The translations under genes and the position numbers were made by a program. A model generated the notes under the pieces. It did not search any database. It saw only the letters and a program-made list of their open reading frames with translations, and was not told the origin of the DNA. Shown here piece after piece: positions 27,596 through 36,671 of a stretch of DNA of 45,466 nt (position 1 is its first letter; each line of letters starts with the position of its first letter). The stretch lies in contig JABWCP010000026.1 in the NCBI GenBank assembly GCA_013360215.1, positions 1 through 45,466 on the forward strand, written 5' to 3'. The stretch is from a bacterium (GTDB taxonomy: Bacteria; CLD3; SB21).

Positions 27596-27697
27596 GCGAA
27601 GAAATTCAAGAGGAAAACTTCGGAGGGAAATTTGAGTTCAATGCGAAATAGAATTTCGCCTGAGTACACGTGCGGTTCATCTGTTAGCTTGCGATCA
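27596..27697 (+). repeat. Direct repeat R1, left of the toxin-antitoxin pair
   Basis: 102 bases that recur at 28435-28537 with about 8 substitutions and 3 gap positions. It contains a short stem (27643-27649 with 27653-27659, 3-base loop). It does not resemble an insertion-sequence end or a tRNA. It lies between the glucosidase start and the end of the DUF5615 remnant. Confidence 0.9.
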
Positions 27698-27752
27698 TGT
27701 GGATATTAAAAAAAATGTAAAATATTTCGATGATCGTTACATCGGTTCTATT

Positions 27753-28434: not shown

Positions 28435-28537
28435 GCGAAGAAATTCAAGAGAAAAACTTCGGAGGGAAATTGTGTTCAATGTGAAATAGAATTTTGCCTG
28501 AGTACACGTGCGCAGTTCATCGATTGGCTTGCGACCA
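28435..28537 (+). repeat. Direct repeat R2, right of the toxin-antitoxin pair
   Basis: 103 bases, the second copy of R1 (27596-27697), 839 bases away at its left end and in the same orientation. The internal stem (28481-28487 with 28491-28497) is kept in RNA through U-G and G-U pairs at the two positions that differ from R1. No ORF is conserved between the copies. Confidence 0.9.
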
Positions 28538-28957
28538 GGTAAACGTCACGGAACTCTGTGGGTCAACGTGTGTTGTACGAGTCATATCGCTAGCCGGTGA
28601 GAGCAAATTAAAAACCAAAAATGATGCAGGGGAGAAGTCTCTCCCCTCGCCTAAGATATAGATAGGCGACGTGGCCACGCTTACGGCGTGGAAATGTCAG
28701 CGTCCAGTAAGGGCGTGGTAGATCAGGAAAGCGATGAAAAAATGTCAATCGAAAGCATGAGCCTGCCTCGCGCACCAAACGCGGGGTGTAGCGGCGCTTA
28801 GGCGAAAGCACGCGAAAGCGAGATGTCGTTCGGATTCAAGAATGATAAGGCAGCAGGAGATGGTCCAAAGGATCAAGCACACAGAAAAATTCACCGCAAT
28901 CAGCAACAACGATGCGGAAAACCACTTATAGCCCGTGTAAACCACAAGATAAAACAT
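28538..28957. other. Gene-poor stretch with hairpins, downstream of the Rhs array
   Basis: 420 bases without a convincing gene. A perfect 8-bp inverted repeat (28628-28635 with 28640-28647, 4-base loop) reads on the minus strand into two T-tracts, so it may terminate the Rhs/immunity transcript. A second hairpin (28675-28680 with 28686-28691) has a CCACGC/GCGTGG stem like others in this island. A 70-codon frame starts exactly at the stop of the upstream immunity gene (ATG at 28957) and encodes one hydrophobic segment, but its second half looks random and I do not call it. Confidence 0.5.
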
Positions 28958-29389
28958 TTAGAGATAAAGAATTTTAAACACCATAAACAGGAGAATTAAA
29001 AACAAGATTATTTGTGTGTAAACGAAAGAATAATTTGCCGTGACGGTTGCGTTCCTTGGCATAATAATCGATATGGCTTTAAATAGTCGATATGTACCAC
29101 CGAATGCGCCCCAATAGCCGAAAAGCTTCCCATCTGCAAAGTAACAGGTTTTAACTGAATCTCCGCTTTTATAAGTCACTTTGATAAAACAATTCACAGG
29201 ATCAGTCCCTTGCAAACCTAGATGCAAAGCAATCAAGTTCGATATTTCTATTTTATTTTTTTTCCCAATGAAACTGATTTGACCGTGCTCTATTCTTAAT
29301 TTCCCTTTATCTCTTTTAAAGGCCTCCTCAAAGTTCATTTTCAATTGCGGGTGGTCTCTATACCAAATTCCTCGATATGTTTTGTTCAC
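28958..29389 (-). CDS. Putative immunity protein of the Rhs-B toxin (membrane-anchored)
   Basis: 143 residues from a GTG start. Residues about 28-110 look like a small beta-sheet (PH-like) domain (GKLRIEHGQISFIGKKNK, CFIKVTYKSGDSVKTCYF); residues about 119-142 form one C-terminal membrane segment. No family was recognised. The toxin stop TAA is part of this gene's AAGGA ribosome binding site, 6 bases before the GTG, so the two are translationally coupled. This is the normal place of an immunity gene, and that is the basis for the call. A membrane immunity protein fits the hydrophobic, possibly pore-forming, toxin tail. Confidence 0.6.
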   Translation of the reverse strand: MNKTYRGIWYRDHPQLKMNFEEAFKRDKGKLRIEHGQISFIGKKNKIEISNLIALHLGLQGTDPVNCFIKVTYKSGDSVKTCYFADGKLFGYWGAFGGTYRLFKAISIIMPRNATVTANYSFVYTQIILFLILLFMVFKILYL

Positions 29390-29398
29390 ATTCTTTCC

Positions 29399-31159
29399 TT
29401 ATTTTAGAATTTTCCAACCCCAATCTATCGCAGCACCCAACCCTTCTTTTGTTGCAATCACCCCTGTTCCGAAACTATTGCTAACAAACCTGCCGTTAAC
29501 CAAACCGAGAGTATTACTTGCAGCTCTGTATTGAGGCCCCGTAGCAAAGCCCGTTCCTCGAACAATTTTATCAGCCGCAAACCCAAATCGAATTGCAGCC
29601 CCTGCGCCTGTTGCGGTCTTTACCAGTTGGAGGTTTGCTTTATTCTCTGATCCGCCTAACAACACGGCATCAGTTTGTTCTATGAGTGTAGAGGTCGCGT
29701 CTGCTGCCAAACTATAAGCACCGGCTAAGCCCGCAAGTGGCAATGTTGCACCGCCAGTCGGCAAAGCCAATATCAGTGAAGCCGTGCCGACATAAAGAGA
29801 CATATCGCCAGATTGTTGAACTTTTTCATCAACAGCGCGAACCACTTGCGTCGTTGCCGCACCAACAATTGCAGTAGTTGTTAAAGCTTCATTGACATTT
29901 TGTTGAAGCTTTCCAACTTGAGATGTCATTTTAGCTTCAGTTTTATCTTTTTGTTCATCCATTCCGCCGCTGAAGAAAGTTCCTATTGCATCTACAAAAG
30001 TATCCCAAAATCCACCGCCATCGGAAGGATCTCCCCAAGTGCCATCGTGATCCATGAAATTCATAGGATCATTTCCTACATATTGATAAGGAGAAAGATA
30101 TTGGCCAAGTGGATCAATTGAATGCCACCTGCCAAGCTGTGGATCATAATAGCGAGCACCAAAATGGTACCAATTTAGACCGAGATATTCTTCAATCTCT
30201 TTACCATTGTAAATGACTTTATTGTCAATTGTAGGTGTTCCAAGACCCTCTATACGAAGGCCAAACGCATAAAAATGAGACTCGTCTTCTACCTCAGCAA
30301 CGCCATTATTATCATCGTCTATAAACATAACACGAGCGTTACCTAAATGATCACTAAGGGTATACTCGTACCTTACTGAGCCGTTTGACTTGCGTTTTAT
30401 CCTTCCTACATCTGTAAAGGAGTAATCCAGCGTCCCATTCTTATACACGAATCCTGATACGTAATCCTGTGTGAGGTCGATTGTTCCATTCTTATAAACA
30501 GTCTTACGAAGCTTAGCACCCGACACGGTATAAATCCACTCAATCCTATTCTGATGATCGGCCCCGAATTCGACCTTGGTGGGCAGATTGAGATAGTTGT
30601 ATTCGATACTCGTGATGCCTTTGTTTTTGTCTTGGGTCATATTACCATTGACATCGTAGCTGTATTCAGCCGTTGCCACGGGATTAGCTACATCATAGAC
30701 CAGATTGGAGCCGTTGTCTGCCATATCATATTTATTATTTCCCGAGATCACAGGGATCGCGTCTCCCACGGACATCAGTTGGTTACCTTTGTACTTGTAC
30801 GTCAGATTATCCATCGTACCATACCCTGAAGGCTGCCCGCTCGACCAAGCTGTCGCTCCACCGCGAATCAAACTTTGAATATTCCCATTGAGATCATACG
30901 TCGCTTGTTCGTTAAACCTTCCCGCATCCTGATTCCACGAGCCGTTGTATTTTTCGTATTCGGCGATGGAGAGCTGATTGATCTGATCGTATGTGTAGCC
31001 ATAGGCATGGCGTACTGTGGTAGATGAGGCCCATATTTGCTGGCTGATATTACCGTTATATTGCGCCGTGCCCGCGATAGCCGCATCCGTTGATTCGTAT
31101 TTGAGTTCCATACCGAAAAGATCTGTCCCTAGATTAGCCGGGTCGTTTATTTTTGTCAT
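29399..31159 (-). CDS. Orphan Rhs-B: truncated Rhs core with a hydrophobic C-terminal toxin tail
   Basis: 586 residues from the ATG, but the frame is open for 22 more codons upstream (KGYYKYNIRGW is already Rhs sequence), so the true Rhs protein has lost its N-terminus. YD/Rhs repeats cover 1-265 (YTYDQINQLSIAEYEKYNG, YDVNGNMTQDKNKGI), and the conserved Rhs core is at about 270-373 (DHLGNARV, ARYYDPQLGRWHSIDPLG, YVGNDPMNFMDHDG). The variable tail 374-586 is Gly/Ala-rich with hydrophobic stretches (about 440-490, 520-545) and no recognisable enzyme motif; membrane disruption is a guess. No signal or secretion domain and no promoter are seen. It is coupled to an immunity gene downstream. Confidence 0.8.
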   Translation of the reverse strand: MTKINDPANLGTDLFGMELKYESTDAAIAGTAQYNGNISQQIWASSTTVRHAYGYTYDQINQLSIAEYEKYNGSWNQDAGRFNEQATYDLNGNIQSLIRGGATAWSSGQPSGYGTMDNLTYKYKGNQLMSVGDAIPVISGNNKYDMADNGSNLVYDVANPVATAEYSYDVNGNMTQDKNKGITSIEYNYLNLPTKVEFGADHQNRIEWIYTVSGAKLRKTVYKNGTIDLTQDYVSGFVYKNGTLDYSFTDVGRIKRKSNGSVRYEYTLSDHLGNARVMFIDDDNNGVAEVEDESHFYAFGLRIEGLGTPTIDNKVIYNGKEIEEYLGLNWYHFGARYYDPQLGRWHSIDPLGQYLSPYQYVGNDPMNFMDHDGTWGDPSDGGGFWDTFVDAIGTFFSGGMDEQKDKTEAKMTSQVGKLQQNVNEALTTTAIVGAATTQVVRAVDEKVQQSGDMSLYVGTASLILALPTGGATLPLAGLAGAYSLAADATSTLIEQTDAVLLGGSENKANLQLVKTATGAGAAIRFGFAADKIVRGTGFATGPQYRAASNTLGLVNGRFVSNSFGTGVIATKEGLGAAIDWGWKILK

Positions 31160-31225: not shown

Positions 31226-31780
31226 CTATTTCGGCTTGCGATAAAATCGATACATCAGCCAATCTGTAAATATAGATCCTCTTGAATAATAGTGTGATCC
31301 AATCGATCTCTTATTAAACGAAAGATAGAAGATGTTGCTTTCCGGACCTATATATAAACTTACTGTATCCTGATGTAGTGTGAAATCAATTTTGAGTTTC
31401 ATAAAATAATGGGTTGGGCCCTTGAACACACCGTCTTCATAGTTATTCAAATCATGGACTTGTTGCCTAATCTGCTCCATGTCAAGAGTAGATAAATCAA
31501 ATATCGAATCCGTTACGCAATTCTCATACTGTTCAGGAAGCACCCAATGGCTAAATTTTTTTACGCAACTATCCATATCAAAGAAATAAATTACAGCATT
31601 TTCACTGCTGTCAATTATGGCTAGTATTTTTTCAGTAAAGAATCTGGCATATACACTATCTCTATCATAAAGATAGTTTCGTTGCTGTTGTTGAATTGGA
31701 CTCAATTTTACTTTTTCACTAACACACGAATTTAGTGTCAAAATACTTGCTACTATAAGAAAAAGATACATTGCCATCAC
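31226..31780 (-). CDS. Lipoprotein, putative immunity protein of the Rhs-A toxin
   Basis: 184 residues. The lipoprotein signal has the lipobox TLNSC (Cys19). The rest is a soluble domain with no recognised family (DSSENAVIYFFDMDSCVKKF, HYFMKLKIDFTLHQD, SNIFYLSFNKRS). Its ATG overlaps the Rhs-A stop by 4 bases (ATGA), the tight coupling of a toxin-immunity pair. An exported, lipid-anchored immunity protein implies that the toxin acts in the periplasm or at the outer membrane. Its TAG stop is followed in the same frame by the Rhs-B core fragment. Confidence 0.6.
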   Translation of the reverse strand: MMAMYLFLIVASILTLNSCVSEKVKLSPIQQQQRNYLYDRDSVYARFFTEKILAIIDSSENAVIYFFDMDSCVKKFSHWVLPEQYENCVTDSIFDLSTLDMEQIRQQVHDLNNYEDGVFKGPTHYFMKLKIDFTLHQDTVSLYIGPESNIFYLSFNKRSIGSHYYSRGSIFTDWLMYRFYRKPK

Positions 31781-33039
31781 TTTCCTCTCTTAACAGTAAT
31801 TTGTTCTAATGTTTTCTTCTGGTTTAGAGGAGTAAGAACAGGTTTTCCATCCTTTGTGTCTCCAACCCAAATATAATCATCGTATCCTGTAACAGATACG
31901 TTTTTACTGCCTTGGAAAAGATTGGCAAATACCAGACCTACTGCGCCAGCAGAATTACAGCCTACTAATTCCACAGAAACATCTTTGCTAAAAGATACAC
32001 CTCCATCCGAAAGCGTCTTAAAAATTTCGGTCCCCGACATTTGTTCCGTTATATCCTTCGTACCACTACTATTTTTTGTGGCATTGAATCCAAAATGATC
32101 TCCAAGAATACCCTCTCCTGCATGAGACACTAATATCACTTTTGTAACTTGTTGAACATTGCCAATCTCTTTAGGGATACTTGAAACTTCTGATGCTTTA
32201 TTAACATTTACTATTTTAATATTATCTTTTTGATATCCTGCAGCCTCCAGCTCCCTTGCTCTGGCTTCTGCATAAGCCTGAAAACCTTCCCAAGCCTCGT
32301 GCCCATTTTTGTCTTTTAAACCAGACTCATCCCCACCAACTATGATCAGAGCTACACCATTGTTTCCTCCTTCACTTTCTGTGCCGTCGGGATCGACCAA
32401 ATTCACCGGATCATTGCCGACATAGGCATAAGGTGAAATAAATTCACCAGCTGGGTCAATCGCGTGCCATCTTCCGAGTTGCGGATCATAATATCGAGCC
32501 TGATAATCGTACCAACCAAGCCCAAGATCATTCTCAAGTTCTTTTCCGTTGTACGTGAATTTATTATCCGGATTGGATGTGGAAAGCCCTTCTATTCGCA
32601 TACCGAATGCATAGTACGCCGAGTATTCGAGTGTCTCAGCCGAGCCGTTGGCATCATCATCGGTGAATGTCACACGTGCATTACCCAAGTGATCGGCTAG
32701 TGTGTATTCGTACCTCAGAATACCGTTGGATTTGCGTTTGATGCGACCAGTCTCTGTAGAAAAGAAATCGAGAATTCCGTTTTTGTACACAAACCGGCTT
32801 ACATAATTCTGAGTCAGTGTGAGATTCCCGCTTGTATAAACACGTTTTTCAAGTTTAACGCCCGATACCGTGTACGTCCATTCAATCCTGTTATTGCTGC
32901 TTCCAAATTCGACTTTCGTCGGCAGATTGAGATAGTTGTATTCGATGCTCGTGATTCCCTTGCTCTTATCGGAAGTCATGTTACCATTGACATTTTGATG
33001 AAACCCAAATAAAGCTTTTTCGGAAGCACCTCTGATCAA
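31777..33039 (-). CDS. Orphan Rhs-A: truncated Rhs core with a caspase-like (clan CD) C-terminal domain
   Basis: 420 residues from TTG 33039; the start is arbitrary because the Rhs homology begins abruptly at residue 16 (NVNGNMTSDKSKGI), after non-Rhs codons that run back to a TAG at 33061-33063. The Rhs core is at about 115-219 (DHLGNARV, ARYYDPQLGRWHAIDPAG, YVGNDPVNLVDPDG). The tail 225-420 has a strand-rich alpha/beta pattern: VALIIVGGDESG, then VTKVILVSHAGEG with His306, then VSVELVGCNSAG with Cys361. Hydrophobic strand-HxG and hydrophobic strand-GC in that order are the block pattern of clan-CD peptidases (caspase, DUF4347-like). The lipoprotein downstream overlaps it by 4 bases and is the likely immunity partner. 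Confidence 0.75.
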   Translation of the reverse strand: MIRGASEKALFGFHQNVNGNMTSDKSKGITSIEYNYLNLPTKVEFGSSNNRIEWTYTVSGVKLEKRVYTSGNLTLTQNYVSRFVYKNGILDFFSTETGRIKRKSNGILRYEYTLADHLGNARVTFTDDDANGSAETLEYSAYYAFGMRIEGLSTSNPDNKFTYNGKELENDLGLGWYDYQARYYDPQLGRWHAIDPAGEFISPYAYVGNDPVNLVDPDGTESEGGNNGVALIIVGGDESGLKDKNGHEAWEGFQAYAEARARELEAAGYQKDNIKIVNVNKASEVSSIPKEIGNVQQVTKVILVSHAGEGILGDHFGFNATKNSSGTKDITEQMSGTEIFKTLSDGGVSFSKDVSVELVGCNSAGAVGLVFANLFQGSKNVSVTGYDDYIWVGDTKDGKPVLTPLNQKKTLEQITVKRGK

Positions 33040-33071: not shown

Positions 33072-33563
33072 TTAAAAATTATATTTATTTACTATTTGTT
33101 TAGTTTTGGTATCAAATTTAGAACGATCAACTTTCGAAGCTATGAGTTTGAGTGCCTTTTTATAGTTTGACCAAAAAAAACCTATATTAAAACTGAAATA
33201 ACCACTGGAAGTTATAACATTTATCCAAATTATTTTAAGAGGCATCCATGATGGGCTAAAACAATTAACACTTTTTATGTCAGTCCAATTAAATGCGTTT
33301 TTTTTTCCAATCCATTTCGTTCTATACTTAAATCCCCATGATGAAATGCCTCCTATAGTATTTAAAGAAGTACGATCAGTTAGAATAACAACTAAAATTA
33401 AAAACATAAAAATTGTGCTAAAGATGCCTTTCCAATTTTTCACTAGAAAATCAAAACTAAAGTATTTTATTGTGAAATAAGCGGCCAAACAAATACCACA
33501 AAGCATAAATAATTTCCATACAATTTTCCATTGTACTCGAATATCTTCTGTCGTTTTAATCAT
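33072..33563 (-). CDS. Membrane protein, orphan immunity candidate
   Basis: 163 residues from the ATG at 33563, which has AGAGAGG about 9 bases upstream (a GTG at 33596 is less likely). Two N-terminal membrane segments lie at about 16-35 and 43-61, followed by a soluble beta-rich domain (WGFKYRTKWIGKKNAFNWTDIK, YFSFNIGFF) resembling bacterial PH-like domains. No family was recognised. The gene ends 12 bases before the open frame of the Rhs-A fragment and its codons are very AT-rich, as in the other small genes of the island. Position suggests immunity for a toxin no longer present upstream. Confidence 0.55.
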   Translation of the reverse strand: MIKTTEDIRVQWKIVWKLFMLCGICLAAYFTIKYFSFDFLVKNWKGIFSTIFMFLILVVILTDRTSLNTIGGISSWGFKYRTKWIGKKNAFNWTDIKSVNCFSPSWMPLKIIWINVITSSGYFSFNIGFFWSNYKKALKLIASKVDRSKFDTKTKQIVNKYNF

Positions 33564-33761
33564 TTTAGAGGCCTCTCTCCTCGCCTCGGCTTTCACGCAG
33601 TCAGGCGTGACAATCCTCGGCGTCTCTCTTATTTCCGTTAACTACGTCACGCTCAGTCAAAACAGCGCATCTAGTGTGAGTAATAGATGCAGGATAACTA
33701 TCTCGCCAACACAACAGACGTATATCTAGAACTTAATACTGTCCACTGTGAGTGAACATAA

Positions 33762-34204: not shown

Positions 34205-34735
34205 TTACTTACAATCTCTTTTTGAATTCGGCAAACAGGGATATACTTCATATTTTGTTCCGAAAAGCAATCCCGTCGGAATTCCAACCAATCCTCCCAA
34301 TAAGCCATTAGAAATAGCAATCAGGAAATAATCACCGGTAGAAAAAGGAACACCGGAATTTCCAAGTTTTGTCAATGCAACGCTTCCGACTGCCCCGGTT
34401 GCAAATCCGATCGCCGATCCGCGGTACATACCTTCCTTACGATTGCGCCATGACAGCATGATCAAATCTTTTAATGCCGCACTGTCTCTTTGAGTGGTTT
34501 TCACATGTGACCAGATAATATGTGTGTCCGTAAGTGTGATGTGATCGGCCTTTATCGTTCCCTTTTTTTTGACGTTTATTTCACATGTACGGTCATTTAA
34601 TTTAGAAGTAAGCGCATCTCGATTGGATGCGTTTTCCATATTCACCGAGAACGAACTGGAACAAGAGGAATAAATGACTACATTCAAAAAGAGGAGTATC
34701 GTTTTGCTCAATCGAGAAAATATTACGTGGTACAT
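34205..34735 (-). CDS. Hypothetical lipoprotein with C-terminal glycine-rich membrane segments
   Basis: 176 residues. Signal with lipobox YSSC (Cys25) after a hydrophobic core at about 12-22. Residues about 50-100 are a small charged domain (CEINVKKKGTIKADHITL). Residues about 105-165 hold two Gly/Ala-rich hydrophobic stretches (RGSAIGFATGAVGSVAL, FLIAISNGLLGGLVGIPTG) with glycine-zipper spacing, as in small envelope proteins. No family recognised. It stands alone in the island and has no close neighbour that would define its job. Confidence 0.55.
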   Translation of the reverse strand: MYHVIFSRLSKTILLFLNVVIYSSCSSSFSVNMENASNRDALTSKLNDRTCEINVKKKGTIKADHITLTDTHIIWSHVKTTQRDSAALKDLIMLSWRNRKEGMYRGSAIGFATGAVGSVALTKLGNSGVPFSTGDYFLIAISNGLLGGLVGIPTGLLFGTKYEVYPCLPNSKRDCK

Positions 34736-34958: not shown

Positions 34959-34983
34959 ACATTTTGACACATCAAAAATGATG

Positions 34984-35058
34984 TGGGCGCTCATGGATTC
35001 GAACCAAGGACCTTCTCGGTGTAAGCGAGACGCTCTAAACCAGCTGAGCTATGTGTTC
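34984..35058 (-). pseudogene. Defective tRNA-Val copy (broken acceptor stem)
   Basis: From the D-arm to beyond the 3' end this is identical to the tRNA-Val at 36582-36656 over a 69-bp perfect repeat (34983-35051). The 5' acceptor strand differs at four of seven positions (2, 3, 5 and 7), so only three of seven acceptor pairs can form. The anticodon loop still reads TAC. It is probably not a working tRNA; the pattern is that of the distal attachment-site copy left by an element inserted in the tRNA gene. Confidence 0.8.
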
Positions 35059-35276
35059 GAAACATGCGGTTAAAAATAAACTAAATTTTCAATACCTCAA
35101 GAAACGATTGTAATATTTTTTTAATTTTTTCTTCATTCTACACGCCACACCCTCAAAATCTGTTTTATTGAAAAAATCAGTTTAATTCCAGAATCCAACT
35201 AATCTTATTAAAGACTTTTCTTTACCATCGTTCAAGAGCGTAATTCTTTCATTTAGTGCTAATCGCCCAATTAGCA

Positions 35277-36452: not shown

Positions 36453-36581
36453 CTAATTTCATAGTATGGATCTGCTTTCTGCGATAGGATCAATATATGC
36501 AGAATAGAAAAACCTTACGTCTTATAAAAGACACTGTGGTAAAAAAATGATTGAAACGATGAAGGAAGATGCTAATAGAAG

Positions 36582-36656
36582 TGGGCGCTCATGGATTCGA
36601 ACCAAGGACCTTCTCGGTGTAAGCGAGACGCTCTAAACCAGCTGAGCTAAGCGCCC
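36582..36656 (-). tRNA. tRNA-Val (anticodon TAC)
   Basis: 75 bases on the minus strand. Seven-pair acceptor stem (GGGCGCT with AGCGCCC), D-arm GCTC/GAGC, anticodon stem TCTCG/CGAGA around the loop CTTACAC, giving anticodon TAC (valine, GUA codons), variable region AGGTC, and T-arm with TTCGAAT. The T stem contains one T-T mismatch. The discriminator is A; CCA is not encoded. No terminator hairpin follows it directly. Confidence 0.93.
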
Positions 36657-36671
36657 GAAAAAATGTGGATA

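Follow-up and report, generated by a model that had tools for sequence, protein, structure and literature searches.

An orphan Rhs fragment with a putative caspase-like tail, remotely related to DUF4347, overlaps a probable lipoprotein immunity gene

What does an Rhs fragment of only 420 residues carry in its variable tail, and what is the role of the lipoprotein whose gene overlaps it? Both genes lie in a bacterial contig of 45,466 nucleotides, which was analysed as a whole (the window). An earlier note on this DNA had proposed that the tail is a caspase-like protease effector, neutralised by the lipoprotein. The features of the locus are the following.

31777..33039, minus strand: orphan Rhs fragment of 420 aa, core remnant and variable tail (ORF call, profile, paralogue comparison)
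32383..32616, minus strand: Rhs-associated core end (TIGR03696), residues 142-219 (NCBIfam profile match)
31780..32382, minus strand: variable C-terminal tail, residues 220-420, putative caspase-like domain remotely related to DUF4347 (profile, hhalign, AlphaFold)
32122..32124, minus strand: codon of His306, putative catalytic His, on the invariant His of DUF4347
31957..31959, minus strand: codon of Cys361, putative nucleophile, on the invariant Cys of DUF4347
31226..31780, minus strand: lipoprotein gene, 184 aa, 4-nt overlap, probable immunity protein
31724..31780, minus strand: signal peptide with lipobox LNSC, Cys19 (sequence inspection)
29399..31159, minus strand: another orphan Rhs fragment, unlike the first in its tail, probable neighbouring cassette (ORF call, profile, core comparison)
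33072..33596, minus strand: small membrane protein upstream, AT-rich (GC 0.29; family search without a match)

The NCBIfam model Rhs_assc_core (TIGR03696) matches residues 142-219 with an E value of 2.5e-20 and ends together with the motif VDPDG (residues 215-219), where the earlier note had placed the end of the Rhs core; the variable tail begins at residue 220. Over residues 13-225, the fragment shares 68% identity (217 aa) with the core encoded by the downstream gene at 29399-31159. The likeness stops just past the core and the tails are unrelated, and such a common core running into unrelated tails is a hallmark of polymorphic toxins. The second fragment (28958-31159 region) has a Gly/Ala-rich tail without a family match, followed by a small membrane protein, and is probably another tail/immunity cassette.

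Core and variable tail of an Rhs polymorphic toxin are thus present, whereas a full-length repeat shell with an N-terminal delivery region is not. The frame starts about 200 residues ahead of the core end and has neither a signal peptide nor an N-terminal half, so that the description as an orphan tail holds. Full-length Rhs proteins comprise well over 1000 residues. Searching the genome itself with the core, we found four copies, whose open frames have 427, 608, 854 and 370 codons, and measured by that length all four look like fragments; since the assembly consists of 56 contigs, a full-length Rhs gene may have escaped this count. Given the missing delivery region and N-terminal half, the copy at 31777-33039 is probably a stored cassette and not a deliverable weapon. 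Standalone toxin cassettes have been described by Zhang et al. 2012 (PMC3482391).

One may ask whether the locus is instead a decayed and silent remnant, a displaced Rhs 3' end which is neither expressed nor active. The absent N-terminal half, the TTG start codon of the 420-aa ORF, the lack of an obvious ribosome-binding site upstream of this TTG on sequence inspection, and the short frames of all four genomic core copies (370-854 codons) would fit such a remnant. However, neither the frame of the tail, which retains both dyad residues, nor that of the lipoprotein is disrupted, and lipobox and overlap are kept as well, which suggests selection until recently at least. Moreover, a stored cassette may be silent yet functional. 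We consider a remnant rather unlikely and prefer the stored cassette. The GC content is 0.44 in the Rhs core and 0.45 in the whole window, against 0.40 in the tail region, 0.34 in the lipoprotein gene and 0.29 in the small gene upstream; such AT-richness is usual in exchanged cassettes. The membrane protein encoded at 33072..33596 is possibly the immunity protein of another, displaced tail.

The tail contains His306 within ILVSHAGEG (residues 302-310) and Cys361, the sole cysteine among the 420 residues, within VELVGCNSAG (residues 356-365), both as reported in the earlier note and 55 residues apart. Compared with a profile of DUF4347 (PF14252), the tail scored 12.5 bits (single-comparison E 6.3e-6, P about 6e-6), and His306 and Cys361 were aligned on the invariant His and the invariant Cys of the family. 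DUF4347 had been named before the comparison and was therefore not selected among many families. The profile consists of 14 domains from genome G055 and plasmid records; a first version had held L021, which was found through the tail, and it was rebuilt so that the 12.5 bits refer to a profile excluding L021 and any sequence found via the tail. Among 20,000 composition-preserving shuffles of the tail none reached this score (maximum 10.3 bits), and the best unrelated natural frame in a set of 317 reached 3.6 bits, where two higher-scoring frames are copies of the tail in overlapping loci. Using hhalign, tail and DUF4347 were related with P 0.02 (3 sequences) and P 0.0045 (14 sequences, in an alignment that includes L021). 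These statistics support that the likeness of the His/Cys blocks to DUF4347 is more than chance.

Genuine DUF4347 members score 86-163 bits in a leave-one-out comparison, far above the 12.5 bits of the tail, which places the tail outside the family, as a remote relative. It also has no PF14252 match above the Pfam cut-off of 24.6 bits, and filing it under DUF4347 was rejected for this reason. In both, a block made of a hydrophobic strand and the His precedes a like block with the Cys. In contrast, the tail has HAGEG where DUF4347 has HGxxG, its His-Cys spacing is 55 whereas the adhesin-type members used have about 42, and the members used lie mostly within large surface proteins, unlike an Rhs tail.

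Support from another side came from a tblastn search of the tail in the phylum of the SusD-rich genome G150, covering 395 genomes; this phylum is presumably the Bacteroidota (SusD was used to choose the phylum in place of a 16S signature search for Bacteroidota, which gave no result). The best match (E 0.003) was a DUF4347 protein (PF14252, E 4e-46), with LLYGCNVGAGAEGLAF aligned to the Cys block of the tail; close relatives of the tail were not found in these genomes. Together, the comparisons indirectly support the tail as a clan-CD-like domain and a remote homologue of DUF4347.

An AlphaFold model of the tail, made without an alignment, has a mean pLDDT of 58 and a pTM of 0.60. At this low confidence, strands and helices follow the caspase order, with His306 placed right after the third strand and Cys361 right after the fourth. 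A Foldseek search of the model against the PDB gave no match at E <= 1e-3, and its top matches were mixed, with caspases alongside reductases, lumazine synthases and dehydroquinases. The model thus speaks for an alpha/beta sandwich, but on its own it does not single out caspases. As to the clan-CD reading of the earlier note, the profile score, the register of His and Cys and the strand/helix order speak for it, while the missed Pfam cut-off, the pLDDT of 58 and the Foldseek result leave it short of being established.

It could be argued that the tail has another alpha/beta fold and that the likeness of its His and Cys blocks to clan CD is fortuitous, as the low-confidence model, the mixed fold matches and the absent Pfam match would allow. 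This appears very unlikely, since the profile score exceeds those of 20,000 shuffles and of the natural frames with His and Cys in register, and since an unbiased search of 395 genomes returned a DUF4347 protein as its best match.

No credible family for the tail was found in Pfam, NCBIfam, PHROGs or PADLOC. Patterns and single-sequence tblastn, which miss distant relatives, gave no relatives in the 9 genomes of its own phylum, in 386 genomes of diverse origin or in two further phyla (82 and 5 genomes), nor in viral contigs, genome_contigs, phages and plasmids; several of the empty scans of viral contigs and one of genome_contigs weigh little, as their search patterns were chosen with the help of X-masked alignment rows, most of them with guessed alternative residues. 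Weak matches to the C-terminal region of a large protein in L005, to a gyrase/topoisomerase-like sequence in L014 and to the ILEI domain within an Rhs protein in L017 were dismissed as chance, and phmmer matches in the PDB to leucine-rich repeats as spurious. The Rhs protein at L017:1153-2526, from the unrelated genome G430, carries an ILEI domain (PF15711, E 8e-24) inserted between core pieces and adjoins a transposase-like ORF.

The gene directly downstream of the tail overlaps it by 4 nt at the junction GGAAAGTGATGGCAATG, where the TGA stop of the Rhs ORF overlaps the GTG start of the lipoprotein gene; in GTGATG, an in-frame ATG immediately follows this GTG. The encoded protein begins with a hydrophobic stretch followed by the lipobox LNSC with its Cys at position 19. 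Hence, the earlier note was right about both the 4-base overlap and the lipoprotein. The protein has no family in NCBIfam and a Pfam match only by chance, its plasmid matches were likewise discarded as chance, and it was identified neither as Imm36 nor as Imm57 in Pfam and NCBIfam. Its single-sequence model (pLDDT 36) was unusable and discarded. Position, overlap and export signal make lipoprotein immunity the natural reading, and judged from its sequence the protein is probably the immunity protein of the tail. If a lipoprotein is the protector, it should encounter the toxin at the outer membrane or on the periplasmic side.

In 2012, Zhang et al. (PMC3482391) predicted a toxin domain called Tox-Caspase and listed RHS as one of its repeats. 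Like the putative caspase-like tail described here, this domain has His and Cys, ends an RHS-type protein and adjoins a small gene. Its partners were given as Imm36 and Imm57 (PMC3482391), whereas here we find a lipoprotein without a Pfam family. In the same survey the sole lipoprotein immunity protein is Imm65, the partner of Tox-JAB-1 (PMC3482391). Imm65 resembles our lipoprotein in having a signal peptide and a lipobox and in adjoining an RHS-type toxin, and differs from it in its partner and in that the lipoprotein matches no Pfam family. Taken together, neither the tail nor its probable lipoprotein partner matches a described family. The earlier note knew of no described Rhs toxin with this pairing: a C-terminal caspase-like toxin, RHS types included, had already been predicted, and a lipoprotein partner for this class does look undescribed in the openly readable literature.

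Most caspase-like domains in polymorphic toxins were described as releasing peptidases, while C-terminal ones are likely toxins (PMC3482391). The former role would make the tail an autoprocessing peptidase of the Rhs protein, the toxin following it having been lost and the lipoprotein not being its inhibitor. However, a releasing domain is usually followed directly by a further toxin domain (PMC3482391), and here the domain is the last in the protein, with only about 30 residues between the final strand in the motif region and the stop overlap. We regard a releasing peptidase as quite unlikely and return to the tail as the toxin itself.

DUF4347 presumably overlaps the CPDadh family. The C80 toxin peptidases belong to clan CD, and the wider CPDadh family is mentioned in a review (PMC2900308). 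Searching the PDB with the DUF4347 profile, we obtained 9QPE chain G (E 3e-4; E 3e-5 once the tail was added to the profile, whose other rows differ as well). This chain is Tce1 (PA0256), taken from an Hcp3-effector complex (PMC13323088), and the DUF4347 domain of PA0256 was noted in an earlier paper (PMC8262886). Tce1 is a putative cysteine protease delivered by the T6SS, whose His186 and Cys240 align with a known catalytic dyad (PMC13323088). In the experiments reported there, the growth of E. coli was unaffected by Tce1 and Tce2, and Tce2 was toxic in yeast, unlike its C115S mutant; there is no immunity gene near Tce1 or Tce2 (PMC13323088). The DUF4347 domain of Tce1, to which family the tail is remotely related, is comparable to the tail in a His/Cys dyad 54 residues apart (55 in the tail), and Tce1 is a delivered effector, as is proposed for the tail once joined to a shell. 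In contrast to the tail, Tce1 is a cargo of Hcp3, not an Rhs tail, and has no immunity gene nearby.

Overall, we think that the locus is probably an orphan cassette of a polymorphic toxin, in which an immunity gene is coupled to the 3' end of an Rhs gene, made up of a core remnant and the variable tail. The low confidence of the AlphaFold model, the mixed fold matches, the absent Pfam match, the distance of the tail from real DUF4347 members, the absence of close relatives in the collections searched, the unaffected growth of E. coli with Tce1 and Tce2, the missing N-terminal half and signal, the TTG start and the lack of an obvious ribosome-binding site all count against a caspase-like toxin. 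The two ORFs, the border between core and tail, the two dyad residues, the overlap and the lipobox are read directly from the sequence, the homology to DUF4347 has statistical support, and fold, proteolysis, toxicity, compartment and immunity are inferred. From its sequence, the tail would fold as a caspase-like, clan-CD-like cysteine peptidase related to DUF4347, with His306 and Cys361 as its dyad. Recombination through the common core could join it to a complete, exported Rhs shell, and in this form it would be delivered into a neighbouring cell, where it may cleave proteins of the periplasm or envelope by means of the dyad. With its anchor on the periplasmic side, the lipoprotein would bind the peptidase there and protect kin. 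The pair would offer a case of an antibacterial caspase-like peptidase together with its site of action, which can be addressed because the protector should sit on the periplasmic side. A more tentative proposal, which we would put somewhat below an even chance, is that the tail belongs to a novel family of caspase-like proteases used between bacteria and seen so far in one genome of a small phylum, which act in the periplasm and have a lipoprotein as their own specific inhibitor. If true, no earlier case would be known of a clan-CD toxin with lipoprotein immunity.

Several further observations concern the surroundings of the two genes. Upstream, a small protein with a hydrophobic N-terminus and the Cys-containing motif IYSSC is encoded at 34205-34735, possibly a second lipoprotein gene of the cluster. 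An intact tRNA-Val(tac) gene lies at 36581-36656 on the minus strand, within 36578-36660, and a partial tRNA-Val copy of 83 nt (34980-35062) is 94% identical. The two enclose two small AT-rich ORFs and are likely an integration footprint adjoining the toxin cassettes. A small ORF at 35277-35747 matches Cas6b_C below threshold, with 18 bits where the cut-off is 39 (E 0.003), which is probably chance. At the downstream edge of the cluster lies a direct repeat of about 105 nt (27596-27700 and 28435-28540, 89% identical, about 840 nt apart). Also downstream of the cluster, a stretch of 159 nt (28647-28805) is 72% identical to L011:5966-6123, which lies downstream of the Rhs fragment on contig C4 of this genome. 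The Rhs fragment on C4, at L011:6860-10425 and directly downstream of an IS30-like transposase, has a tail that looks HNH-like by eye, without a Pfam match.
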